Assembly (NCBI GenBank): GCA_028694545.1 | Contig: JAQVKV010000024.1 | Location: forward strand, 1-11,420 | Direction of reading: 5' to 3' | Length of the DNA stretch: 11,420 bases | DNA from: Zavarzinia sp. | GTDB lineage: Bacteria > Pseudomonadota > Alphaproteobacteria > Zavarziniales > Zavarziniaceae | Shown here: positions 60 through 11,420 of the stretch, piece by piece | How the letters are laid out: each line of letters begins with the position of its first letter | Position numbering within the stretch: the stretch's first letter is position 1 | Notes under the pieces: generated by a model | Databases searched by the model: none | What the model was told of the DNA's origin: nothing | What the model saw: only the letters and a program-made list of their open reading frames with translations | Translations under genes and position numbers: made by a program

Positions 60-788
60 ATGGCCGGATCGGACGTTACGCCGATCTTTTCCTGTGACAA
101 CCTCTCGCTCGACCTGGGCGGGCGAGAGGTCCTCAGGAACATCGGCTTTGAACTGCGGCCGGGCGAGGTGCTGGGCATCATCGGCCCCAACGGGGCGGGG
201 AAGACCAGTCTCCTCGAAATCCTGTCGGGCCGCTACCAGCCGAAGACGGGCCGTGTAACCTACAAGGGTCGGGACATCACGTCGCTGAAGCTGTTCGAGC
301 GCGCGCGCCTCGGCATCGGCCGGACCTATCAGACTCCACTCGTCTGCGAGGATCTGACCGTCGGCGAGACCTTCAAGGCGGCGCGCCAGGCATTCCGGCC
401 CTATCTGACGCGCTTCGACGCCGAATATGGCGCCAATCTCGTCCATTTCACCACGCCCTACGACCGGGCCAACAGCCAGTTGAAGACGTTCGAGCGGCGC
501 AAGCTCCTGATGGCCAATCTCCTTATGCGCCGGCCGAGCATTCTCCTGATGGACGAACCGGCGGCGGGCCTGATCAACGCGGAGATCGACGAGATCGACC
601 AGATCCTGCGCATGTTGTCGAAGGAGATGAACGTCGCCGTGCTCATCGTCGAGCACCGCATCGAACTCCTCGATTCCATCGCCGACCGTGTGATCGTGAT
701 GGATGCGGGTGAGGTCATCGCCGAAGGCGAACTGGCCGATGTCATCAAGAGCCCCGCCGTCCGTGCCGCCTATTTCGAGGCGCATTGA
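60..788 (+). CDS. livG: Branched-chain amino acid/amide type ABC transporter ATP-binding protein (LivG-like)
   Basis: This is one of two nucleotide-binding subunits that drive import through the LivHM-type permease pair at the inner membrane. The 242-residue protein has a Walker A (GPNGAGKT, residues 42-49), a Q-loop glutamine in RTYQTP (about residue 91), a Walker B with catalytic Glu (ILLMDEP, 161-167) and an H-loop His in IVEHR (about 199). Its length is usual for LivG. The ABC signature is odd: where LivG proteins normally carry an LSxGxQR-type loop, this one reads LKTFERRKLL (141-150), without the glycines. The ATP site that uses this loop may be weakened, while the LivF partner keeps LSGGE. 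The start at 60 follows the upstream stop by 6 bases. The neighbouring transporter subunits make the assignment firm at family level. The substrate is inferred from the downstream amidohydrolase genes, not from this protein. Confidence 0.9.
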   Translation: MAGSDVTPIFSCDNLSLDLGGREVLRNIGFELRPGEVLGIIGPNGAGKTSLLEILSGRYQPKTGRVTYKGRDITSLKLFERARLGIGRTYQTPLVCEDLTVGETFKAARQAFRPYLTRFDAEYGANLVHFTTPYDRANSQLKTFERRKLLMANLLMRRPSILLMDEPAAGLINAEIDEIDQILRMLSKEMNVAVLIVEHRIELLDSIADRVIVMDAGEVIAEGELADVIKSPAVRAAYFEAH

Positions 789-807
789 GAAAGCGCAGGG
801 GAACGGG

Positions 808-1509
808 ATGACAGAAGTTCTGAAAATCGAGGGGCTGTCCGCGGGCTATGGTCCGCTCCGGGTCATTCACGACCTGGACCTCGTGATCCGGCCGGGCGAA
901 AGGCTCGGCATCGTCGGCCTGAACGGCCATGGGAAGACCACGCTGATCTATGCGATCGCCGGGCTCACCGGCTGGCAGCGCGGCTCGATCCTCCTGAACG
1001 GTGTCCAGATCGGCCGCACGCGCAGCCAGGGCCCCGGGCGTTACACCCACCAGATCGTGCGCAAGGGCCTCGCGATCATGCCCCAGGGAGACGAAATCTT
1101 CACCGGCCTCACGGTCGAGGAGCATCTCGATTCCGGCGCCTTCACGCGTGAAGCGTGGCGTGATCGCAAGCAGCGCAAGGAGAAGGTGCTCGATCTCTTT
1201 CCGCCGCTGGCCAAGCTGATGAAGACGGCGGTCGGCCGCCTGTCAGGTGGCGAGCGGCGCATGGTCTCGATCGGGCGCGGGCTGATGACCGACGCCAAGC
1301 TCTACCTCGTCGACGAGCCGTCGCTCGGCCTTGCCCCCAAGATCGGGCAGAGCGTGATGGAAGCACTGTTCGCGATCGATCTCAAGGACAGCGCCATGTT
1401 CATCGCCGAACAGAATGTCGCCCTGCTGGAAGGCCGGGTGGACCGGGTGATCGGCATGCACGCCGGTAAACTGAAGGGCGAGGCTTCGACCACGCTCGGC
1501 ATCGGCTGA
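808..1509 (+). CDS. livF: Branched-chain amino acid/amide type ABC transporter ATP-binding protein (LivF-like)
   Basis: This is the second ATPase subunit of the importer, 233 residues from the chosen start. It has a Walker A (GLNGHGKTT, 37-45), a Q-loop in MPQGDEIF (about 93), a canonical signature LSGGERR (145-151), a Walker B (LYLVDEP, 165-171) and the IAEQN segment near 199-203. LivF proteins typically carry EQN here where other ABC ATPases have the H-loop His. The start at 808 is preferred over upstream in-frame starts, which would lie inside livG. It follows AGGGGA at 797-802 with 5-base spacing, and the protein then begins with the family's usual N-terminus. It lies 19 bases after livG and 14 bases before livH. 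It should form a heterodimer with the LivG-like protein, whose signature loop is degenerate, so the two ATP sites may be unequal. Confidence 0.93.
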   Translation: MTEVLKIEGLSAGYGPLRVIHDLDLVIRPGERLGIVGLNGHGKTTLIYAIAGLTGWQRGSILLNGVQIGRTRSQGPGRYTHQIVRKGLAIMPQGDEIFTGLTVEEHLDSGAFTREAWRDRKQRKEKVLDLFPPLAKLMKTAVGRLSGGERRMVSIGRGLMTDAKLYLVDEPSLGLAPKIGQSVMEALFAIDLKDSAMFIAEQNVALLEGRVDRVIGMHAGKLKGEASTTLGIG

Positions 1510-1523
1510 ACGGGACAGGTTCC

Positions 1524-2405
1524 ATGGAAATCGCCCAAATCCTTACCAACGCGGTCGTCGTCGCCTCGATCTACGGGCTGATCGCGGTCGCCGTGTCCAT
1601 CACCTGGTCGAGCCTGGGGCTGGTCAATCTTGGCTACGGCTTCGTCTTTTCCTTCGCCGGTTTCTGGGCCTGGGTCGTTGCCCAGAATGTCTCCGAATGG
1701 CCCCCGATCGTCGCGGCGGCGGGGCTGGTCGGCGGTGCGGTCGGCGGCATTCTCATATGCCTCGTCGTGTTCATACCCCTGCACGACAAGCCCAATTTCA
1801 CCACGCGCGGCATGATCGGCACCCTGGCGATCAGCCTGATCGGCTCGCAGGCCCTGCTCATGCAGTTCGGGCCCCGCGCCAAGTCCCTGCCGGAGCTCTT
1901 CGGATACTGGCAGGTGGACATCGCGGGCATGGCGCTCACCTCGGACAAGATCGGCATCGTCGTCTGCTCGATTGTCATGCTCGGCTTCGTCGTCTTCTGG
2001 ATGAAGGGCAGCCGGCGCGGCCTCGAGATCCGGGCGATGATGATGAATCCGCATGCGGCATCGATCGTCGGCATCGGCATCCGTTCGACCGGGATCTATG
2101 TGATGGCGCTGACCGGGGCCATGGCGGGGCTCGCTTCCGTGCTCCTGTCCCAGACCTACTACATCGCGCCCTTCAGCGGCCTGACGCCGCTCATCAAGGG
2201 GGTCAGCATCGCACTCTGCGGTGGTCTTGGCTCGGTCCAGGGCGCGGTGATCGCCGCGATGATCCTGGGCCTGACCGAAGCCGTGACATCCCGCTTCCTC
2301 GGCGGGCAATACGTCCTGATCACCCAGTTCCTCGTCATCATCCTGATCCTGATCGTGCGTCCGCGCGGCATCTCGGGACTTCTGGACAAGGCTCGTGAAC
2401 AATGA
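1524..2405 (+). CDS. livH: Branched-chain amino acid/amide type ABC transporter permease (LivH-like)
   Basis: This is an inner-membrane permease subunit of 293 residues, the normal length for LivH. Hydrophobic segments run through the protein, for example about 6-28, 35-55, 62-85, 96-112, 142-160, 190-210, 220-250 and 262-278. Two family landmarks are visible. One is the cytoplasmic loop RRGLEIRAMMMNPHAA (about 164-179), the region that contacts the ATPases. The other is the glycine-rich GGLGSVQGAVIAAMILG stretch (about 233-249). The C-terminus, RPRGISGLLDKAREQ, is typical. Its stop overlaps the start of the next permease gene as ATGA (2402-2405), which implies translational coupling. It pairs with the LivM-like protein to form the translocation channel. 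Confidence 0.93.
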   Translation: MEIAQILTNAVVVASIYGLIAVAVSITWSSLGLVNLGYGFVFSFAGFWAWVVAQNVSEWPPIVAAAGLVGGAVGGILICLVVFIPLHDKPNFTTRGMIGTLAISLIGSQALLMQFGPRAKSLPELFGYWQVDIAGMALTSDKIGIVVCSIVMLGFVVFWMKGSRRGLEIRAMMMNPHAASIVGIGIRSTGIYVMALTGAMAGLASVLLSQTYYIAPFSGLTPLIKGVSIALCGGLGSVQGAVIAAMILGLTEAVTSRFLGGQYVLITQFLVIILILIVRPRGISGLLDKAREQ

Positions 2406-4066
2406 CCGATACGCAGCCCGCGAAACTCCGGCCGATCACCTGGCACAACCCGCTCGAGCCCTGGGGCCAGGACCAGGGCAATCCGGAGCTGACCTCGGTC
2501 GCGTCGCCCGATGCCAGTGATACCTGGCGCGCCAACACGAAATACAAGGCAAAGACCTACAAGGTCGGGCGCCTGAAGCATTATGTCATCTGGCGGAACA
2601 ACGGCCAGCGCCTGTGGGACCGCTGGCGCTGGTGGCCGACGCGGCGCAACGTCCTCAACATCAGGGGGCTCTACAACCGCAAGACCCTGAAGGCCGAGAA
2701 GAAGATCCTGGACCGGCGTCCGATCTATTGGGCGATCTGCTTCGCGCTCCTCGTCATCGGCCCGGCGGTCTTCCCGGCTTCCATGTACAACACGCTGTTG
2801 TCGGCCGGCACGATCTTCGGCATCTTCGCCGCGATCAACGTCTGCTGGACCCTGATCCTCGGCACCGCCAGCATTTTCACCCTGGCGAGTTACGCTGTCG
2901 TCGGGGTGGCGGCTTTCGTCACTACCTATCTCTCCATACAATGGGGCCTGCCCTGGTATGTGCTGCCGGTAGGTGGGGCCTTCATCGGGCTTGCGGTCGG
3001 CATCGTGATCGCCATTCCGGCGCTGCGCCTGGACGGCTTCTATTACGCGTTGCTCACCCTTGGCCTCAACGAGCTTTGCCGGGTGTTCTTCACCACGTCC
3101 AAGGTCTTCGGTTCGGCCTCAGGCGGGCTTTACGGCGCGGACAGCTTCATTCCCGACAGTTGGTCGCCGAACGCGCAATCCCTGCTGTCCTATTATTCCG
3201 CCTTCCTGCTGCTGGTCGCCGTGCTCTTCCTCTTCCGTTTCATCAACGGCAAGCAGTTGGGCCGGGTCCTGCGCATGGCGCCGGAAAAGCGTGAAGCCTT
3301 CGCCGAAGCCTGCGGCGTCGATTATCGCCGGGCCCGTATCATCATCTTCGTCGTGACCTCGGCGGCGCTTGGCTTCATTGGCGGCTTCTATGCGACCCTC
3401 TATCGCGGCACGGCCTTCTCGATCTTCAGCTTCGATACGGTACTGCTTGGCCTTGCCATGGTTACCATCGGCGGCATCGGCAAGGCGGAGGGCGCGATCC
3501 TCGGCACCCTGGTAGTCACCTTCCTCGACAAGGTGCTGATCGACCTCGGTCCGACGCGCCTGTTCCTGATCGGGCTGATCATGCTTGGCGTCGTGCTGTT
3601 CACCAACAACGGCTATTTCGGCATCAAGAAGCAGTTCAACGCCTGGCGTGACAAGAAGCGTGGCGAATGGCGCTCCATGCGCTCGGAAAAGGGCGGTGAA
3701 GCCCTGCCCGAGGAGGCGACGGAGCGTGACAACAAGGACGAGGTCTATTTCCTGCGCTTCGACAAGATGCAGCGGGATTACCTGAAGACCCTGATCTGCC
3801 CGGAAATCATCGAGGAACACCGTCAGCAGCCGCTTGGCCAGCACAGCGCCACCCTGGAACGGCTGCTCATGTACTTCCGGCGCGCGCCGATGGACGACAA
3901 ATACGCCCTGCAGCGCAACGCCGAAACCGGGCGCTACAAGATCATCGCCTTTTCCGGTCACCGCGGTGTCTCGCCCCGCGTGGTGGAGGACCGCGAATAC
4001 GACACGATCGGCGATGGCTACCACGCCATCTTCGTCCGCCGCGTCCACGACCTGATGGAATCGTGA
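2402..4066 (+). CDS. livM: LivM-like ABC permease fused to a C-terminal DmfA1 (dimethylformamidase small subunit) domain
   Basis: This 554-residue protein is well above the usual LivM length of about 320-430. It falls into three parts. Residues 1-105 are a polar, basic, Trp-rich N-terminal extension with no signal peptide. Residues 107-403 are the LivM permease core, with hydrophobic segments near 109-127, 131-153, 158-177, 184-206, 260-281, 311-330, 341-379 and 386-401 and the family motif IGGIGKAEGAILG (356-368). After a highly charged linker (about 410-447), residues 454-552 match DmfA1, the small subunit of N,N-dimethylformamidase. By hand alignment about 37 of 99 positions equal the free DmfA1 encoded 37 bases downstream. 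Shared landmarks are YLK, PE-IEEHR, QH, LM, YAL and a closing H-IF-R---DLM. The frame is continuous, and no Shine-Dalgarno-like sequence precedes internal Met codons at 3677 or 3767, so a hidden separate gene is unlikely. Placing the C-terminus in the cytoplasm would let the domain bind the catalytic large subunit DmfA2; this is inference. The start overlaps the livH stop. Confidence 0.88.
   Translation: MTDTQPAKLRPITWHNPLEPWGQDQGNPELTSVASPDASDTWRANTKYKAKTYKVGRLKHYVIWRNNGQRLWDRWRWWPTRRNVLNIRGLYNRKTLKAEKKILDRRPIYWAICFALLVIGPAVFPASMYNTLLSAGTIFGIFAAINVCWTLILGTASIFTLASYAVVGVAAFVTTYLSIQWGLPWYVLPVGGAFIGLAVGIVIAIPALRLDGFYYALLTLGLNELCRVFFTTSKVFGSASGGLYGADSFIPDSWSPNAQSLLSYYSAFLLLVAVLFLFRFINGKQLGRVLRMAPEKREAFAEACGVDYRRARIIIFVVTSAALGFIGGFYATLYRGTAFSIFSFDTVLLGLAMVTIGGIGKAEGAILGTLVVTFLDKVLIDLGPTRLFLIGLIMLGVVLFTNNGYFGIKKQFNAWRDKKRGEWRSMRSEKGGEALPEEATERDNKDEVYFLRFDKMQRDYLKTLICPEIIEEHRQQPLGQHSATLERLLMYFRRAPMDDKYALQRNAETGRYKIIAFSGHRGVSPRVVEDREYDTIGDGYHAIFVRRVHDLMES
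3761..4057 (+). other. DmfA1-like domain inside the LivM-like permease (paralogue of the free dmfA1)
   Basis: This segment encodes residues 454-552 of the permease. It aligns with residues 21-118 of the separate DmfA1 (bases 4164-4457) with about two single-residue gaps and about 37% identity by my count. Conserved blocks include PE-IEEHR near the start, QH, LM and YAL in the middle, and H-IF-R---DLM at the end. It begins just after an acidic/basic linker and has no ribosome binding site of its own. The two copies lie next to each other in the same orientation, as expected if dmfA1 was duplicated in tandem and the upstream copy became joined to livM. The degree of divergence says the event is old. 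Confidence 0.8.
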
Positions 4067-4103: not shown

Positions 4104-4475
4104 ATGACAGAGCCACTCGACCCCAATCCGGTCAACGGCGAACTCGCCGTCCGGGAATATTTCGACAGCAAGACGCGACGTTATCTGAAGCGTGTCATCA
4201 CGCCCGAGCTGATCGAGGAGCACCGCTGCGGCCCGCATGCCCAGCACAGGAGCGAACCGCTCGGCCGGTTGATGTTCTATCTGAAGAACCTGCCGATCGA
4301 CCAGCAATACGCCCTGAGGCTCATGCCGAACGGCGCATATCGCATCACCAGCATCCCGAAGCCGGGAGAACCCCCGGTCGAGGTGGACGGGACCGATTAC
4401 CCCGATCCGAGCGCCGGCCTTCACGGGATTTTCCTGCGCAAGATCAACGATTTGATGGGTAGGCAAGATGGCTGA
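4104..4475 (+). CDS. dmfA1: N,N-dimethylformamidase-type small subunit
   Basis: The 123-residue protein is close to the roughly 132 residues I recall for the small (light) subunit of bacterial N,N-dimethylformamidases. In those enzymes small and large chains assemble in the cytoplasm, and the large chain holds the iron centre that hydrolyses the amide. The protein is charged, with no signal peptide or membrane segment. Recognisable stretches are YLKRVITPELIEEHR (27-41), LPIDQQYALRL (63-73) and LHGIFLRKINDLM (106-118). Its last codons overlap the large-subunit gene by 8 bases (4468-4475), as expected for two obligate partners made in equal amounts. A related domain is fused to the permease encoded immediately upstream. 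The natural substrate may be another N-methylated amide, since many homologues of this family are annotated by similarity only. Confidence 0.88.
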   Translation: MTEPLDPNPVNGELAVREYFDSKTRRYLKRVITPELIEEHRCGPHAQHRSEPLGRLMFYLKNLPIDQQYALRLMPNGAYRITSIPKPGEPPVEVDGTDYPDPSAGLHGIFLRKINDLMGRQDG

Positions 4476-6792
4476 ACAGAAGATCTTCGGATATACCGAC
4501 AGGCTGTCGGTCAAACAGGGCGACAGGCTGAACATCTACGTCAATTGCGACGGTTCGGATTTCGCCGATGCCCAGCTTGTCCGCCTGATCCATGGCGACA
4601 ACAATACCGAGGCGGGCCCCGGTTACATCGAGCGGGAAATTCCGCACCCGGCCAACGGAAACTGGCCGGTGAAGAAGCAGTTCACCCAGCTCGGCAATTA
4701 CCTGACGGTCGAGGATCCGGACCAGCACCTGAAGCTGGACGGGACGTTGTCTATGGGGGCCTTCATCTGGCCGTCGATGCCGAAGCGGGGCGCGCGCCAG
4801 ACCATCATGGGCCGCTGGGACACGCTGACCAACGAGGGCTTCGCGCTCGGCATCAACCCGGACGGCTACCTGGAATTCTGGGTCGGCGACGGCAAGGAGG
4901 TGGATTACATCACCTCGGAAATGCCGCTGATCAAGCATGTCTGGTACCTGGTCGGCGTCAGCTTCGATGCCATGACCCGGACGGTCACGCTCTATCAGGA
5001 AGGGGTTCTGAATCGTTACAATTCCCTGATCGGGACAACGACCCCCTATGACTTCGCGTCCCATGTCCGTACCCGCTTCCGCTTTTCGCAGCACAATCGG
5101 GCGGATGTGCCATTCCTGATCGCCGGCGCGCGCGACCATCACGAGCTGCGTGGCAATTTCGTCGGCGATCTCTATGCCGGCAAGATCGACCGCCCCTTCA
5201 TCTCGGAACGGATCCTGACCCGCGAGGAAATGGATACGGTCAAGGCCGGGCACAAGCCGCCGGCGGATGGCCTGATGGCCTATTGGGATACGGCCGCCGG
5301 CTATACGGATGACGGCATCGGCCATGACGTGGTCGAGACCGGCCCCTATCGCCTGAAGACCCGAGGGGTGAACCATCCGGTGCGCGGCATGACCGGCTGG
5401 AACTGGAACGGCAAGAACGACTGTTTCCGTCTCGCTCCCCATGAGTTCGGCGGCATCGAGTTCCATCCGGACGCCGTCACCGACTGCGGCTGGGCGGTGA
5501 CGAAGACGATCGAGATCCCGTCCGACCTGAAGGCCGGACCCTATGCCATCCGCCTGCGGGTCGGGCCCGGGTGCGGGATCGCCGAGGAGTATGTCGTCTT
5601 CTTCGTCCGCCAGGCGAAGCCGACCGCGAAATTGTGCTTCCTGGTCCCGACGGCAAGCTATCTCGCCTATGGCAATGAAACCCTCGCCTTCGATGCCCAG
5701 ATCGTGCAGCCCATGACCGGCCAGCCGCCGATCATCTCGGATGTCGAGATCGAGACCTACGAGCACCGTGAATACGGGCTCTCGACTTATAACCACTTCG
5801 AGGATGGCGCGGGCGTCTGCTTCAGCTCGTGGAAGCGGCCGATCATCAACATGCGGCCGAAATTCCGCAATTCCTGGATGGGCGCTCCGTGGCAGTTCCC
5901 GGCCGATCTTTCGGTCACCGCCTGGATCGAGCATTGCGGCTACGACTGCGACTTCATCACGGACGACGACCTGCACCGGGAAGGGCTGGCGGCGCTGAAG
6001 CCCTATAATTGCGTGATCTCCGGCACCCACCCCGAATATGTCTCGGAGCGGATGCTCGACGCGCAGGAGGATTATGTCGCCCAGGGCGGCCGGCTCATCT
6101 ATACGGGCGGCAATGGTTACTATTGGTGCGTCAATTTCGATCCGGAAGAGGCCGCCGTCATGGAGGTCCGCAAGCTCGACAGCGGCATGCGCGCCTGGGC
6201 GGCCAAGCCGGGCGAGCATTACCTGCAGACCTGTGGCACCAAGAGCGGGCTGTGGCGAAACCGGGGGCGCGCGCCGCAGAAGCTGGTCGGCGTCGGCATG
6301 ATCTCGGAAGGTTTCGAGACCTGCACGCCGTTCCGCCGCATGCCGGATTCCTGGCACCGCACCGTGTCCTGGATCACGGAGGGCATCGAGGGCGAGCTGA
6401 TCGGCGACGAGGGCCTGGCCTATGGTGGGGCCGCCGGCATCGAGATCGATCGCTACGACCTTGCGCTGGGCACGCCGCCGCACACCAAGATCATCGCCTC
6501 GTCCGGCGGGCATACGGACAATTACGTGCTGGCGACGGAAGAGATCCTCTATGCCTATGCCGGCATGGTGGGCTCCCTCGATTATCGTATCCGCGCCGAC
6601 ATGATCTATTACACGAGCTGGAACGATGGCGCCGTGTTCAGCTCGGGCTCCATTGCCTTTGGCCAGGCCCTGCCGGCGAAGGGCTTCGAGGGCACGACCT
6701 CGAAGCTGCTGCGCAATGTGGTGGATGCCTTCCTGAAGGATGGTCCGTTGCCGGGCCGGCAGTGGACTCTTGAAGAGAAGCAGTGGCGCTGA
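4468..6792 (+). CDS. dmfA2: N,N-dimethylformamidase-type large (catalytic) subunit
   Basis: The 774-residue protein is close to the roughly 762 residues I recall for the large chain of dimethylformamidase, which hydrolyses DMF to dimethylamine and formate. Residues about 85-250 look like a LamG/concanavalin-like beta-sandwich (for example HVWYLVGVSFDAMTRTVTLY, 157-176). Residues about 265-765 form the catalytic DMFase region. From the published Paracoccus structure I recall a mononuclear iron bound by Tyr399, Tyr440 and Glu521, with His519 and Glu657 also in the active site. The matching residues here are Tyr398 (in TASYLAYGNE), Tyr441 (in TYNHFEDG), Glu523 and His521 (in GTHPEY) and Glu659 (in AGIEIDRYD). 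All are present, so the enzyme is probably active. There is no signal peptide, so it should be cytoplasmic. The ATG at 4468 overlaps the dmfA1 stop and follows AGG at 4461-4463. The substrate could be DMF, N-methylformamide or another small N-alkyl amide. Confidence 0.9.
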   Translation: MAEQKIFGYTDRLSVKQGDRLNIYVNCDGSDFADAQLVRLIHGDNNTEAGPGYIEREIPHPANGNWPVKKQFTQLGNYLTVEDPDQHLKLDGTLSMGAFIWPSMPKRGARQTIMGRWDTLTNEGFALGINPDGYLEFWVGDGKEVDYITSEMPLIKHVWYLVGVSFDAMTRTVTLYQEGVLNRYNSLIGTTTPYDFASHVRTRFRFSQHNRADVPFLIAGARDHHELRGNFVGDLYAGKIDRPFISERILTREEMDTVKAGHKPPADGLMAYWDTAAGYTDDGIGHDVVETGPYRLKTRGVNHPVRGMTGWNWNGKNDCFRLAPHEFGGIEFHPDAVTDCGWAVTKTIEIPSDLKAGPYAIRLRVGPGCGIAEEYVVFFVRQAKPTAKLCFLVPTASYLAYGNETLAFDAQIVQPMTGQPPIISDVEIETYEHREYGLSTYNHFEDGAGVCFSSWKRPIINMRPKFRNSWMGAPWQFPADLSVTAWIEHCGYDCDFITDDDLHREGLAALKPYNCVISGTHPEYVSERMLDAQEDYVAQGGRLIYTGGNGYYWCVNFDPEEAAVMEVRKLDSGMRAWAAKPGEHYLQTCGTKSGLWRNRGRAPQKLVGVGMISEGFETCTPFRRMPDSWHRTVSWITEGIEGELIGDEGLAYGGAAGIEIDRYDLALGTPPHTKIIASSGGHTDNYVLATEEILYAYAGMVGSLDYRIRADMIYYTSWNDGAVFSSGSIAFGQALPAKGFEGTTSKLLRNVVDAFLKDGPLPGRQWTLEEKQWR

Positions 6793-6862: not shown

Positions 6863-6888
6863 CTTCATGGTAGACAGGAGCCATGAAG
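6863..6888 (+). promoter_or_regulatory. Palindrome over the start codon of the XRE-cupin gene (operator or mRNA hairpin)
   Basis: CTTCATGG (6863-6870) and CCATGAAG (6881-6888) are perfect 8-bp inverted arms separated by 10 bases. The spacer holds the AGGAG ribosome binding site (6876-6880), and the right arm contains the ATG at 6883. As DNA it is a plausible dimer site for the encoded helix-turn-helix regulator, giving autoregulation. As RNA it would hide the start codon in a stem and present the Shine-Dalgarno in the loop. The AGGAG-to-ATG spacing is only 2 bases, which also suggests weak translation. Confidence 0.4.
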
Positions 6889-7608
6889 ACACCCGGGAAA
6901 GATACCGGTCCGCGCAGGATCAGGCTGGCCAAGGCCGAGAAGGCGGTGGCCGCGACGTCCCGCGCCAAGGGCGCGACCGCCAAGATCCCCGCCGAACGGC
7001 CGGCGGCCATGATTTCCATCGATTCGGAAGCCATTCCCCTCGAACGCCAGCTTGGCGCCGTCATCCGGCGGCTGCGGGTCAAGAGTGGCCTGACCCTGGC
7101 GGAACTGTCCGAGGGGGCGGGGATCAGCAGCGGCATGTTGAGCCGGATCGAAACCGGCAATGTCATGGCCAGCCTCGACACCTTGCGCCGGCTGTCGCGT
7201 GCGGTCGGGGTCGACCTGTCCACCCTGTTCCGGGAGACGGAGCGGGGAGAGGGCCACGCCCAGCTGATCAAGGCCACGGATCAGATGGAAGTGGTGCGCA
7301 GCGGCACCCGCCACGGCCACACCTATCGCCTGCTGTCCTACGACCGGGGCCCCAAGAAGAAATTCGAACCTTTCCTGATCGAAATGGACCGGGAAAGCGA
7401 GATCTATCCCCGGTTCCAGCATCCGGGCACGGAATTCATCTACATGATGGAAGGGCGGATGGATTACCGCTTCGGCGACCGCACCTATCTGCTCGAGCCG
7501 GGGGATGCTTTCACCTTCTCCGGCGAGGTAGAGCACGGGCTGGAAAAGCTACACGTGGAGCGGACGGTCTTCCTCTCCATCATCATCTATGACGAGGATG
7601 CGGGCTGA
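6883..7608 (+). CDS. XRE-family transcriptional regulator with C-terminal cupin domain
   Basis: This 241-residue protein has three parts. Residues 1-45 are a basic, Ala/Lys-rich tail. Residues about 57-112 are an XRE helix-turn-helix, with recognition helix region ISSGMLSRIETG (81-92). Residues about 150-236 are a small cupin barrel, with HPGTEFIYMMEG (180-191) and EPGDAFTFSGEVEHGL (205-220). Candidate metal or ligand residues are His180, Glu184 and His218; one His of the classical HxH pair is Phe178. Such regulators usually bind a small effector in the cupin domain and control neighbouring genes. The gene stands between the amide-degradation operon and the convergent mgs/gma set, so either could be its target. 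ATG 6883 is the first in-frame start after a stop at 6871. A later Met at 7009 lacks a ribosome binding site. A perfect palindrome overlaps the start. Confidence 0.88.
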   Translation: MKTPGKDTGPRRIRLAKAEKAVAATSRAKGATAKIPAERPAAMISIDSEAIPLERQLGAVIRRLRVKSGLTLAELSEGAGISSGMLSRIETGNVMASLDTLRRLSRAVGVDLSTLFRETERGEGHAQLIKATDQMEVVRSGTRHGHTYRLLSYDRGPKKKFEPFLIEMDRESEIYPRFQHPGTEFIYMMEGRMDYRFGDRTYLLEPGDAFTFSGEVEHGLEKLHVERTVFLSIIIYDEDAG

Positions 7609-7632: not shown

Positions 7633-8970
7633 TCAGATCGCGCCCGGTATCCAGCGGGTGCCCGCCAGGGGTACCTGGGCCATGGCCGCCGCCTCGATAG
7701 TGAGGGCGGAGAGATCTTCCGGTTCCAGATTGTGCAGGGCGCTCTTGCCGCAGGCCCGCGCCAGGGTCTGGGCTTCGAGGGTCAGCACCTTCAGGTAATT
7801 GGCCAGACGGCGACCGGCGGCGATCGGGTCCAGGCGGCTGGACAGGGCCGGGTCCTGGGTGGTGATACCCGCCGGGTCCAGGCCTTCGTGCCAATCGTCA
7901 TAGGCGCCTGCCGTGGTGCCGAGGGCCTGATAGTCGGCCTCGAGCGCGGGGTCGTTGTCGCCAAGGGCGATCAGGGCCGCCGTGCCGATCGAGACCGCGT
8001 CGGCGCCCAGCGCCATGCATTTGGCCACGTCGGCGCCATTGCGGATGCCGCCGGAGACGATCAACTGCACCTTGCGGTGCATGCCGAGGTCCTGCAGCGC
8101 CTGGACCGCCGGGCGGATGGCGGCCAGGGTCGGAATGCCCACATGCTCGATGAATACTTCCTGGGTCGCCGCCGTGCCGCCCTGCATGCCGTCGATCACG
8201 ATCACGTCCGCGCCCGACTTCACCGCCAGCGCCGTGTCGTAATAGGGGCGCGAGGCGCCGATCTTCAGGTAGATCGGCTTTTCCCAATTGGTCAGTTCGC
8301 GCAATTCCTCGATCTTGATCTCGAGATCGTCGCAACCGGTCCAATCCGGGTGACGGCAGGCGGAACGCTGGTCGATCCCCTCCGGCAGGTCGCGCATCCG
8401 GGCGACGCGGGCGGAAATCTTCTGGCCCAGCAGCATGCCGCCGCCGCCCGGCTTCGCCCCCTGGCCGACCACGATCTCGATCGCGTCCGCCCGGCGCAGG
8501 TCGTGCAGGTTCATGCCATAGCGCGACGGCAGATACTGATAGACCAGCTTGTCCGAATGGCCTCGCTCTTCCGGCGTCATGCCGCCGTCGCCGGTGGTGG
8601 TCGAGGTGCCGGCGAGGGTGGCGCCCCGGCCCAGCGCTTCCTTGGCCTGGCCGGAGAGGGAGCCGAAGCTCATGCCGGCGATGGTGACCGGAATGTCCAG
8701 CTCGATCGGCTTCTTCGCGAAGCGGGTGCCGAGCGTGACATTGGTGGAGCATTTCTCACGGTAGCCTTCCAGGGGGTATCGGCTCATGGAGGCGCCGAGG
8801 AAGGTGAGGTCGTCGAAATTGGGCAGGCGCCGCTTGGCGCCGCCGCCACGGATGTCGTAGATGCCGGTTGCCGCCGCGCGGCGGATCTCGGAAATGGCGT
8901 AATCGTCGAAGGTCGCGGACTTGCGCGGGGTGGTGCGCATCCAGCCGTCGTGACGGGGGGCGTTGCTCAT
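7633..8970 (-). CDS. mgsC: FMN-binding glutamate-synthase-like protein, probable N-methylglutamate synthase subunit C
   Basis: The 445-residue protein matches the FMN-binding (beta/alpha)8 barrel of glutamate synthase. Landmarks are GMSFGSLS (99-106), TTTGDGG (124-130), GQGAKPGGGGMLLGQKI (169-185), DGMQGGTAATQ (260-270) and GGIRNGADVAKCMALGADAV (307-326). In N-methylglutamate synthase this subunit should catalyse formation of N-methylglutamate from glutamate carbon and methylamine, together with the amidotransferase and GXGXG subunits. In classical glutamate synthase the barrel is followed by a cysteine motif for a 3Fe-4S cluster, before PxGIxTQ. Here that place reads YDDWHEGLDPAGITTQ (357-372) with no cysteines, so the cluster is probably absent. 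Its ATG overlaps the last base of the mgsB-like gene. It is the last gene of this operon and converges on the regulator gene. GlxD of the glx system is the main alternative name. Confidence 0.82.
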   Translation of the reverse strand: MSNAPRHDGWMRTTPRKSATFDDYAISEIRRAAATGIYDIRGGGAKRRLPNFDDLTFLGASMSRYPLEGYREKCSTNVTLGTRFAKKPIELDIPVTIAGMSFGSLSGQAKEALGRGATLAGTSTTTGDGGMTPEERGHSDKLVYQYLPSRYGMNLHDLRRADAIEIVVGQGAKPGGGGMLLGQKISARVARMRDLPEGIDQRSACRHPDWTGCDDLEIKIEELRELTNWEKPIYLKIGASRPYYDTALAVKSGADVIVIDGMQGGTAATQEVFIEHVGIPTLAAIRPAVQALQDLGMHRKVQLIVSGGIRNGADVAKCMALGADAVSIGTAALIALGDNDPALEADYQALGTTAGAYDDWHEGLDPAGITTQDPALSSRLDPIAAGRRLANYLKVLTLEAQTLARACGKSALHNLEPEDLSALTIEAAAMAQVPLAGTRWIPGAI

Positions 8971-9659
8971 CAGTAGGCTCCCGCGTTGTCGATGTTGAAG
9001 TGATAGAGCTTGCGGGCCGAGCCGTAGCGCCGGAACGCTTCGACCGGCACGTCGGTGACGCCGGCTGCCGACAGCAGTTCGGCCAGTTCCTCCTTGTGCT
9101 CGTCGTTCATGGGTTTCTCTACACAGTCGGCGCCAAGGCTGGCGACCGCGCCGCGAACATAAAGCCGGGCCTCATAGATCGAATCGCCGAGGGCTTCGCC
9201 GGCATCGCCAAGGACGACGAGGCGTCCGGTCTGCGCCATGAAGGCGGAGAGATGGCCGACGTCGCCTTTCACCACGATGTCGATCCCCTTCATCGAAATG
9301 CCGCAGCGCGCCGCCGCATTGCCGTCGATGACGAGCAGGCCGCCCCGGCCGGAAGCACCGGCCGCCATGCTGGCGTCACCGGTGACATGGACCTTGCCGG
9401 CGCTCATGGTTTCGGCCACGCCCTGACCGACGCTGCCCTTCACCGTGATTTCGGCGCCATGGTTCATGCCGGCGCAGAAATAGCCGGTATTGCCGTCGAT
9501 CTCGATCGTCAGGGGCCGGTCGATGCCGACGGCGACCGAATGATGGCCGCGCACGTTGGCGATCTGCCAGGTGCCGCCGGCGGGCGCCGCGCTTTCGTTC
9601 TGCAGGCGGCTGTTCAGGTCGCGCGTGGTGGTTTTCTTCAGGTCGATGGTGGCGCTCAT
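8970..9659 (-). CDS. mgsB: GXGXG-motif protein, probable N-methylglutamate synthase subunit B
   Basis: The 229-residue protein corresponds to the C-terminal right-handed beta-helix of glutamate synthase, encoded separately. Repeating glycine turns are visible from about 55 to 170: GNTGYFCAGMNHG, GSVGQGVAETM, GDASMAAGASGRGG, GNAAARCG, GDVGHL and GDAGEALGDS. The domain has a structural role and helps align the FMN barrel and the amidotransferase. I chose the start at 9659 (MSATIDLKK) because it overlaps the upstream amidotransferase stop in an ATGA arrangement; an in-frame start 45 bases earlier would lie inside that gene. The 3' end overlaps the mgsC start by one base. Tight coupling of the three genes fits a fixed-ratio complex. 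In the glx naming it would be glxC. Confidence 0.82.
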   Translation of the reverse strand: MSATIDLKKTTTRDLNSRLQNESAAPAGGTWQIANVRGHHSVAVGIDRPLTIEIDGNTGYFCAGMNHGAEITVKGSVGQGVAETMSAGKVHVTGDASMAAGASGRGGLLVIDGNAAARCGISMKGIDIVVKGDVGHLSAFMAQTGRLVVLGDAGEALGDSIYEARLYVRGAVASLGADCVEKPMNDEHKEELAELLSAAGVTDVPVEAFRRYGSARKLYHFNIDNAGAY

Positions 9660-10555
9660 TGGCCGCGCTCCCAGAAATAGACGGTGGCGGGTTTCGGCTC
9701 CCACACCCTCGCGTTGTCGATGCCCGGCAGGTCGACGAGGGCGCGATATTCCGAGCCGAAGGCGACATATTGGTCGGTCTCGGCCATGACGGCGGGCTTG
9801 CAGGCGATCGGGTCGCGCAGCACGCCGAAGCCGCTTTCGGTGCCGACGACGAAGGTGAAGAAACCGTCGAGATCGTCGAGGCCGGATTGCAGGGCCTCGC
9901 CCAGGCTCTGGCCCTGACGCATGCGCCAGGTCAGGTAACCGGCCGCGACCTCGCTGTCGTTCTCGGTCGCGATCCTAACGCCTTCCCGACGCAATTCGCG
10001 GCGCAGGGAATTGTGATTGGAGAGCGAGCCATTATGGACGAGGCACTGATCCGCCCCGGTGGAGAAGGGATGCGCGCCGTCGGTGGTGACGGCGGATTCT
10101 GTCGCCATCCGGGTATGGGCGACGCCATGGCTGCCGCGCATCGTCTCGAGACCGAAAGCCTTGCCGACGGCGACCGGATTGCCGACCTCCTTGAAGATTT
10201 CCATCCGCTTGCCCTTGCCGATCACGCTGATCTCGGGGGCATGGACGGACAACCAGCTCTCCGCATGGGCGAGATCGCCCTCGGGTACGGAAACGATGGC
10301 GTGGGTGTGCCGGATGGCGAAACTCAGTTCCTTGCCGAGCGCCTCCGCCAGCTCGCCGGCGACGGCGGTGACATGGCCTTCGCTTTCACCGTGGAGGGAA
10401 AGCTTCACGGTGTCCGGCCGGCCTTCGCCGTAGATGGCGAAACCCGCGGAATCCGGGCCCCGGCTGCTCAGGGGACCCATCATGCCGGCCAGCAATTCGC
10501 CGAGCCTCGGTTCGAGCGCCGAGTCCTTCAGGAAAAGTCCTGCGATACCACACAT
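9656..10555 (-). CDS. mgsA: Class II glutamine amidotransferase, probable N-methylglutamate synthase subunit A
   Basis: The 299-residue protein begins MCGIAGLF, so Cys2 would become the N-terminal nucleophile after Met removal, as in all class II (Ntn) glutamine amidotransferases. Other landmarks are SRGPDSAG (31-38), GVAHTRMATES (144-154), CLVHNGSLSN (171-180) and ENDSEV (198-203). These are the usual glutamine-binding and oxyanion-hole regions. The start at 10555 is dictated by the nucleophile; an upstream in-frame start would bury Cys2 behind 19 residues and overlap the preceding gene. A GAGG (10564-10561) lies 5 bases before the ATG. The gene is 13 bases downstream of the gmaS-like gene and overlaps the mgsB-like gene by 4 bases. 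It is homologous to the N-terminal domain of glutamate synthase. GlxB is the alternative name. Confidence 0.83.
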   Translation of the reverse strand: MCGIAGLFLKDSALEPRLGELLAGMMGPLSSRGPDSAGFAIYGEGRPDTVKLSLHGESEGHVTAVAGELAEALGKELSFAIRHTHAIVSVPEGDLAHAESWLSVHAPEISVIGKGKRMEIFKEVGNPVAVGKAFGLETMRGSHGVAHTRMATESAVTTDGAHPFSTGADQCLVHNGSLSNHNSLRRELRREGVRIATENDSEVAAGYLTWRMRQGQSLGEALQSGLDDLDGFFTFVVGTESGFGVLRDPIACKPAVMAETDQYVAFGSEYRALVDLPGIDNARVWEPKPATVYFWERGQ

Positions 10556-10568
10556 GTTATCCTCGTTA

Positions 10569-11420
10569 TCAATAGAAGGACAGATAGCGGCTGGTTTCCC
10601 AGTCGGAGACATGGCGGTGGTAGTCCAGCCATTCCATCCGCTTCAGGGCGATGAACTCGGCCATGAACCCGGTGCCGAGCGCATCGGCGAACAGCGTGTC
10701 GGCCTCGAGCGCGTCGATCGCTTCCTTCAGGGACTGGGGCAGGATCGAGACGCCCTTGGCGGCGACCTCGGCCGGGGAGAGTTCGTAGAAATTGCAGTTC
10801 TGCGCGGTGCCCGGGTCGATCTTGTTATCGATGCCGTCGAGCCCGGCGGCGATGATGGCGGCGCTCGCCAGATAGGGGTTCATGGCGCCGTCGCCGGTGC
10901 GGATCTCCAGCCGGCCATAGGGCACGCGCACCATGGCGGTGCGGTTGTTGTCGCCATAGGCCATGAACACCGGGGCCCAGGTGGTACCCGACAGGTTGCG
11001 GCCGACGACGAGGCGCTTGTAGGAATTGACGGTCGGGGCCAGCAGGGCCGTCAGGGCCGGCGCATGCTTCATGATCCCGCCGAGGAAGTAATAGGCGAGG
11101 TCGGAAAGTTCGAGGCCGTTCGGATCGGCCTTGTCGTGGAACAGGTTGCGTCCGCTCGAATCGGCCAGGGAGCAATGGACATGCATGCCGCTGCCGGTCG
11201 TTTCCGATTTCGGCTTCGGCATGAAGGTGCAGATGGCGTCCAACTCGTGGGCGATCTCGGTCGCGGCCATCTTGAAAAGGGTGATCTGGTCCGCTGTCGT
11301 CATGGCGTCGGCGTAATGGAAGTTCACCTCGTACTGGCCGTTCGCGTCCTCATGGTCGATCTGATAGACGTCGATGCCGACCGCCTGCAGCGAATTGACC
11401 AGCCGTTCCAGGAAGGCACG
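10569..11420 (-). CDS. gmaS: Glutamine synthetase family ligase, probable gamma-glutamylmethylamide synthetase (N-terminus beyond the window)
   Basis: The C-terminal 283 residues are visible and the frame is open to the right edge; about 160 residues are missing if the protein has the usual length near 440. The visible part holds the glutamine synthetase active site: [12 protein letters not shown] (fragment residues 23-34), [11 protein letters not shown] with the metal-binding His, [20 protein letters not shown] and [16 protein letters not shown]. It ends [11 protein letters not shown], as expected for the GmaS/GlnT branch. GmaS uses ATP to join methylamine to glutamate, giving gamma-glutamylmethylamide, the entry step of the N-methylglutamate pathway. 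The immediate downstream mgsABC-like genes and nearby dimethylformamidase favour GmaS over GlnT (ammonia), but the two cannot be separated by motifs I can see. An internal GTG at 11327 is not the start, because the conserved domain continues upstream of it. Confidence 0.75.

Follow-up and report, generated by a model that had tools for sequence, protein, structure and literature searches.

Fused permease and its gene set

The window analysed here is an 11,420-base stretch of Zavarzinia sp. DNA, which is an entire contig (JAQVKV010000024.1) of a source assembly of 668 contigs that is 74% complete. It encodes an ATP-binding cassette (ABC) importer of the Liv type in which the LivM-type permease is joined in frame to a copy of DmfA1, the small subunit of N,N-dimethylformamidase (DMFase), and the gene for this fused protein is followed by genes for a free DmfA1 and for DmfA2, the large subunit. 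The importer and DMFase genes, and the parts of the fused protein, are as follows.

60..788, + strand: LivG-type ATPase of the importer (ABC_tran E 1.5e-24; best NCBIfam match UrtD, under the cut-off)
805..1509, + strand: LivF-type ATPase (ABC_tran E 1.9e-27; best NCBIfam match UrtE, under the cut-off)
1524..2405, + strand: LivH-type permease (BPD_transp_2 E 4e-26), its stop overlapping the ATG of the fused permease
2402..4066, + strand: fused protein, LivM-type permease with DmfA1 tail, 554 aa (BLASTP, Pfam, phmmer, predicted fold)
2402..2716, + strand: basic, Trp-rich N-terminal extension, residues 1-105 (22 K/R vs 9 D/E)
2717..3601, + strand: ten predicted membrane helices, residues 106-400
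3602..3748, + strand: conserved linker, residues 401-449, its first part basic (9 K/R in the first 40 residues)
3719..4063, + strand: DmfA1 domain, residues 440-554 (range aligned to 6lvb_B/6lvv_B; BLASTP, phmmer)
4104..4475, + strand: free DmfA1, DMFase small subunit (6lvb_B E 8.8e-7)
4468..6792, + strand: DmfA2, DMFase large subunit, active site intact (6lvb_A E 4.3e-166)

As a first-pass annotation of the window had read it, the fused protein is encoded by one unbroken open frame of 554 codons, whose ATG overlaps the LivH stop as ATGA. Pfam BPD_transp_2 (PF02653) covers residues 138-397 (E 3e-19), and this domain together with LivG, LivF and LivH upstream places the protein among the LivM-type ABC permeases; its scores fall far short of the NCBIfam cut-offs for LivM (51.4 bits vs 366) and UrtC (39.7 vs 296.2). 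The LivG-F-H-M gene set is shared with Liv/Urt-type ABC importers of branched-chain amino acids, urea and short amides; unlike in those importers, LivM here carries both the basic N-terminal extension and the DmfA1 tail. Four tryptophans of the extension (W14, W42, W72 and W78) are conserved in at least 90% of 82 aligned rows, no Pfam match to residues 1-105 was obtained, and residues 1-44 and 1-64 are unmatched in the deep-branching loci L097 and L098, respectively. It is possible that this extension is a second docking surface. No binding-protein gene was found among the genes identified on the window contig; a Peripla_BP_6 protein is encoded upstream of LivG in both related loci tested (L031 and L041).

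BLASTP with the last 140 residues of the fused protein as query aligned the tail to the free DmfA1 with 43 of 101 positions identical (43%, E 2e-23). The relation between the two had been proposed from a hand count of about 37 of 99 identities; it stands, with a slightly higher figure, and the four sequence blocks named in that proposal are present in the alignment. The tail alone as query retrieved 6lvb_B, the small subunit of Paracoccus DMFase, at E 1e-8 as the sole match up to E 10, and the free DmfA1 found 6lvb_B independently (E 9e-7). The predicted fold of the tail matches the DMFase small subunit at 2.4 Å over 113 residues, and the domain is whole, because the small subunit has 119-125 resolved residues. 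The Pfam search made in this analysis gave no match for the tail or the free DmfA1; the precomputed Pfam accession PF26354 is carried by the 10 free DmfA1 proteins found and by all 120 listed tail proteins of the protein search described below. Judged by sequence and predicted fold, residues 440-554 (approximately) of the permease are a complete DMFase small-subunit domain. The fusion put forward in the first-pass annotation is thus confirmed, the relation holds in profile as well as in fold, and the C-terminus of the permease is predicted to be cytoplasmic, not periplasmic.

Recurrence of the fusion and descent of the free copies

A scan of 84,980 species genomes, in which two permease-core peptides served as query and the tail was not used, returned at least 80 loci, and the tail (whole or partial) was in frame with the permease core in 76 of the 80. 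Among the others, the contigs of L095 and L101 end before the tail, in L105, a single-cell contig, a frame break precedes the tail, and L106 has no tail, its sequence breaking off at an apparent contig junction. The same join is present in the congener G005, in a copy that is 93% identical. Furthermore, a protein search with the tail as the scored region, limited to whole proteins of about 305-970 aa, found 405 of 520 candidate protein clusters at E 1e-3 or better; among the matches listed (120 of the 405), both Pfam accessions are carried by 119, and 111 have a length of 548-559 aa; their names, where present, are mostly those of plain branched-chain amino acid permeases. The permease-DmfA1 domain pair is therefore already visible in databases, hidden under plain permease names. 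Searches of an open-access library found no paper describing the fusion, and the accessible portion of one paper names a dimethylformamidase in SAR11 rhodopsin clusters and does not mention the fusion (PMC10308929).

Hosts, by record title, are mostly Alphaproteobacteria, along with Beta- and Gammaproteobacteria and one Desulfobacula metagenome-assembled genome (MAG), and the carriers of the fused system include SAR11, Bradyrhizobium and a number of methylotrophs. Among 385 genomes sampled evenly from the window's class, 35 had a DmfA1-family domain, which was seen as a permease tail in two (G000, the window genome, and G007). Copies close to the proteobacterial ones were also found in L029 (titled Oceanobacillus sp.) and L099 (titled Klebsiella pneumoniae MAG), which are probably contaminated or wrongly binned records.

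DmfA2 was visible in 73 of the 80 loci, on which the counts of locus architecture are based. A free DmfA1 lies between the fused permease and DmfA2, as in the window, in 16 of the 73 (window type); in the remaining 57 (second type) no free DmfA1 intervenes, so that the tail is the last DmfA1 before DmfA2, and a median distance of 36 bases separates the permease stop from the first codon of DmfA2 in the alignment (at most 123 in 56 loci, and 1,284 in L083). Ten loci (L061, L067, L070, L073, L075, L076, L078, L080, L094 and L104; about 11650-16860) are of a tandem type, in which two DmfA2 genes, with a free DmfA1 between them, follow the fused permease.

The first-pass annotation had treated the free DmfA1 as the reference form, a view that the trees do not favor. 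With unfused DmfA1 as the root of the DmfA1 tree, a single group with support 98/91 holds the remaining 60 rows (41 tails, 18 free copies and one lone gene), and the window-type free copies fall in one clade with the window-type tails (99/89), while the tandem-type free copies sit with tails in an unresolved fork; in an unrooted tree of 106 rows the tails do not occupy one side of any branch. Window-type DmfA2 likewise form one clade (95, and 97 in the thinned, rooted tree), beside SAR11 loci that have only the tail. Across the 17 window-type loci (the window and 16 others), mean identity was 76% for tails, 47% for free copies and 74% for DmfA2 (the short L027 DmfA2 omitted), and in each of the 136 (non-independent) pairs tail identity exceeded free-copy identity. 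Fifteen columns shared by 80% or more of 11 unfused DmfA1 were taken as classical. The fraction of them retained is 0.83 in 59 second-type tails and 0.78 in 17 window-type tails (the partial tail of L079 omitted), as against 0.65 and 0.73 in groups of 17 and 10 free copies, a rough measure because distant rows were aligned. Altogether, these comparisons suggest that the free DmfA1 of the window is likely a faster-evolving duplicate of the tail. The DmfA1 tree is short, and descent of free copies from tails is likely but not proven, because the inner forks are weak and the free copies long-branched.

Two further loci bear on this family. A lone DmfA1-like gene (L128:9806-10240, - strand) groups with the permease tails and lies upstream of a binding-protein gene with no DmfA2 of its own nearby. 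L151:5100-7784 encodes a free DmfA1 and DmfA2 near the fused family, with no Liv permease match within the fetched stretch, and this pair could be escaped or ancestral.

Tail-only genomes, tandem loci and the proposed machine

In 45 of the 57 second-type loci, the DmfA1 profile found no other DmfA1 within the stretch examined, and 28 genomes from these 45 loci were searched whole with the same profile. In 12 of the 28, the only DmfA1-family domains found were in permease-length frames (one in each of 11 genomes and two in G075, whose second frame, of 549 codons, was assigned to a permease by length alone). The number of DMFA2_C genes in these 12 genomes equals that of DmfA1 (one in eleven, two in G075), and no DMFA2_C gene was found in 14 control genomes. 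DmfA2 of the window has all five active-site residues of the Paracoccus enzyme (Y401, Y441, H521, E523 and N549, corresponding to Y399, Y440, H519, E521 and N547), and these residues are kept in 43 of 43 DmfA2 rows from the loci without free DmfA1. These rows represent the 45 loci less two short ones; the count was made after removal of rows matching over no more than 1,800 bases (L027, L043, L058 and, in L051, the second copy) and of the L085 copy on the minus strand.

The Paracoccus DMFase (DmfA1/DmfA2; 6lvb, 6lvv) shares with the fused system its two subunits, the active-site residues of the large subunit and the fold of the small one. It differs in being a purified soluble enzyme whose small subunit is a chain of its own, with no transporter mentioned in the available text of the source. 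According to that text, the large subunit without the small subunit is enzymatically inactive, and the N-terminal helix of the small subunit is wedged between two large subunits (PMC7686228). Because some genomes have only the tail and the Paracoccus large subunit is inactive alone, the tail is most likely a working subunit; in the tail-only genomes it is the sole candidate small subunit found, which most likely would place the hydrolase at the importer. A tether of this kind had been proposed in the first-pass annotation, and it gains support, short of confirmation, from tail-only loci and genomes beside DmfA2 with an intact active site. Substrate channelling, and activity sensing by which import would be controlled, both raised in that annotation, would be possible consequences of such a tether.

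We therefore favor, with good though not full confidence, a reading in which the tail works as a complete small subunit of DMFase and would hold DmfA2 at the cytoplasmic mouth of the importer, with uptake and breakdown probably being physically one machine. DmfA2 would bind the tail as it binds free DmfA1 in Paracoccus, and the enzyme seated on the importer would hydrolyze the substrate during entry. Importers of this type have one LivM each. A single LivM would offer a single alpha subunit, and an alpha2-beta2 enzyme would thus either bridge two importers or add a free alpha in its second place; the free DmfA1 of the window probably fills that place or belongs to a soluble pool.

Unfused forms of the same genes support this reading at the level of gene order. 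In four of ten loci with distant, unfused DmfA1-DmfA2 (L127, L128, L134 and L051), the pair lies in one run with a binding protein, LivH, LivM, LivG and LivF; such an importer set was not seen in the other six within the stretch examined. These four loci differ from the window in that LivM is unfused (about 367 aa), DmfA2 is 35-39% identical to that of the window, and the gene order is another one. Their arrangement, in the manner of a Rosetta stone, supports a functional link of importer and enzyme. At a separate locus (L147:3250-5826), DmfA1 and DmfA2 are joined in one polypeptide in an open frame of 859 codons. Transporter-enzyme fusions are known as a kind, for example LplT-Aas and SulP-carbonic anhydrase, in which a transporter is likewise covalently joined to an enzyme part; unlike in those, the subunit fused here is the non-catalytic one, the catalytic one would be recruited, and the transporter is an ABC importer. 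The fusion is thus an unusual twist on known transporter-enzyme fusions, the joined part being non-catalytic yet essential in the Paracoccus enzyme.

The tandem loci bear on the stoichiometry of the proposed machine. Their 20 DmfA2 form one clade (support 99, and 100 in the thinned, rooted tree) and thus stem from a single duplication. One paralogue (support 96 and 91) has the five active-site residues intact in 10 of 10 loci, and in the other (98 and 95) the active site is broken in 10 of 10, by Y399F/L with H519R in eight loci and by Y440C in the remaining two, the two sets having opposite gene orders. In Paracoccus, Y440A and H519A mutants are inactive, according to the available text (PMC7686228). 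Retention of the dead paralogue suggests that it serves docking or control within a mixed enzyme, and it fits a single alpha subunit per importer offered to an alpha2-beta2 enzyme. Because seven of the ten loci, from Bradyrhizobium and a Xanthobacteraceae MAG, are closely related, the independent events are few. A more speculative proposal, which we hold only tentatively, is that import and hydrolysis form an asymmetric membrane machine in which one alpha is the tail and the other is free, the free ones being escaped tail copies, and in which one lineage duplicated DmfA2 and kept a dead partner, with one half for docking or control and the other for catalysis.

Several points weigh against a working, tethering tail. 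A further DmfA1-family copy outside this permease is present in 16 of the 28 genomes searched whole; of the 12 tail-only genomes, seven are titled as strains, but the other five were assembled from single cells or metagenomes and may lack genes; and the DmfA1 profile could miss a free small subunit that has diverged very far. The window itself has a free DmfA1, so its tail may not be needed for active enzyme, and in G320 the fetched stretch holds no permease but a DmfA1-DmfA2 pair near the fused family, its DmfA1 being free. Finally, N-acetyl-(R)-beta-phenylalanine acylase, a relative of DmfA2 (8huy and others, E 1e-102), has no recognizable small-subunit chain, and dependence on a small subunit may therefore not hold for every relative. 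Queries with the tail and with the free DmfA1 matched DMFase structure entries only, and no acylase entries.

The strongest rival explanation, which we judge unlikely, is that the tail is a control domain, in which a DmfA1 fold senses free or occupied DmfA2 and gates the importer, with catalysis left to soluble enzyme. MetNI and ModBC have regulatory tails, to which the tail would be likened; it follows the last membrane helix on the predicted ATPase side, and a free DmfA1 is there for catalysis in the window and in the 16 window-type loci. However, no free DmfA1 that could serve a soluble enzyme was found in the 12 tail-only genomes, and the tails keep the classical columns better than the free copies do.

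Release of the tail by proteolysis or an internal start, by which it would act as a soluble small subunit and the fusion would set only dose, is less probable again. A linker of about 40-50 residues joins the two parts, but linker residues 401-449 are conserved like the membrane core (mean majority fraction 0.80 vs 0.76 in 82 rows), unlike a plain spacer. Between the last membrane helix and a point halfway along the first helix of the tail, ATG codons occur only at M426 and M456, and GGAGG lies upstream of the start of the free DmfA1 at 4104. M456 is Met in 69 of 82 rows, as an internal start might be, but it lies within the first tail helix, and M426 lacks conservation (9 of the 82 rows have Met there).

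We regard as more doubtful still that the tail is a non-functional relic, with DmfA2 working alone, as the acylase without a recognizable small subunit might suggest, or with free DmfA1, as in the window; window-type tails are more conserved than the free copies, and L106, the sole tail-less locus with sequence beyond the permease, seems to be a junction of contigs. An origin of the join in faulty sequencing or assembly, conceivable from a fragmented and incomplete source genome, is refuted by the in-frame recurrence of the join in 76 of 80 loci from many assemblies, including the congener, and by the protein clusters with both accessions.

Substrate, neighboring genes and meaning

The Paracoccus enzyme acts, as given in the available text, on N,N-dimethylformamide (DMF), N-methylformamide, N-ethylformamide and formamide (PMC7686228), and a second dmfA1-dmfA2 locus of P. 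aminophilus was reportedly not linked to DMF use (PMC4543880). Judged by sequence, the enzyme of the window is DMFase-like; DMF as its actual substrate would be an assumption, and a natural methylated amide seems the likelier one. Downstream of DmfA2 the window carries the following genes.

6883..7608, + strand: helix-turn-helix (HTH)-cupin regulator (HTH_31 and Cupin_2)
7633..8970, - strand: glutamate-synthase-domain protein (Glu_synthase E 1.6e-88), presumably MgsC/GlxD-like
8970..9704, - strand: GXGXG-motif protein (PF01493), presumably MgsB/GlxC-like
9656..10612, - strand: glutamine-amidotransferase-type protein (amidotransferase part of the GlmS, AsnB and PurF models, under cut-offs), presumably MgsA/GlxB-like
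10569..11420, - strand: type III glutamine synthetase, truncated by the contig end (TIGR03105 E 1.1e-130; 436 bits on the visible part vs a cut-off of 469.6)

The HTH-cupin protein is probably the cluster's own regulator, because similar copies (51-59% identical) occur in some related loci (L050, L073 and L085). The domains of the divergently encoded neighbors fit the N-methylglutamate synthase MgsABC with GmaS, and the set is presumably MgsABC- or GlxBCD-like, with a GmaS-like synthetase. This suggests that the amine product may be passed to glutamate through the glutamine-synthetase-like enzyme and the glutamate-synthase-like set. A close copy of the latter set (MgsC-like protein at least 70% identical) is present in the fetched stretch of 10 of 80 loci, SAR11 included. 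At the SAR11 locus L041:6225-18334, one run on one strand encodes a binding protein, LivGFH, the fused LivM, DmfA2, the amidotransferase, the GXGXG protein, the glutamate-synthase domain and a type III glutamine synthetase. A second glutamate-synthase-like set, with an MgsC-like protein 51-52% identical, lies upstream in L042, L047, L055 and L086. Methylamine may not be the substrate of the window's set, because some SAR11 loci hold this second set.

If the proposed machine is real, an enzyme subunit built into the permease would by construction unite an ABC importer in one complex with the cytoplasmic enzyme consuming the imported cargo. The family would then be a natural test bed for substrate channelling at the exit of a transporter, with tail-only, tail-plus-free, tandem and unfused gene sets as its controls. 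The plain branched-chain amino acid permease names conceal the role of the fused proteins, whose SAR11, Bradyrhizobium and methylotroph hosts point to a possible importance in how small methylated amides are turned over in the sea and in soil.

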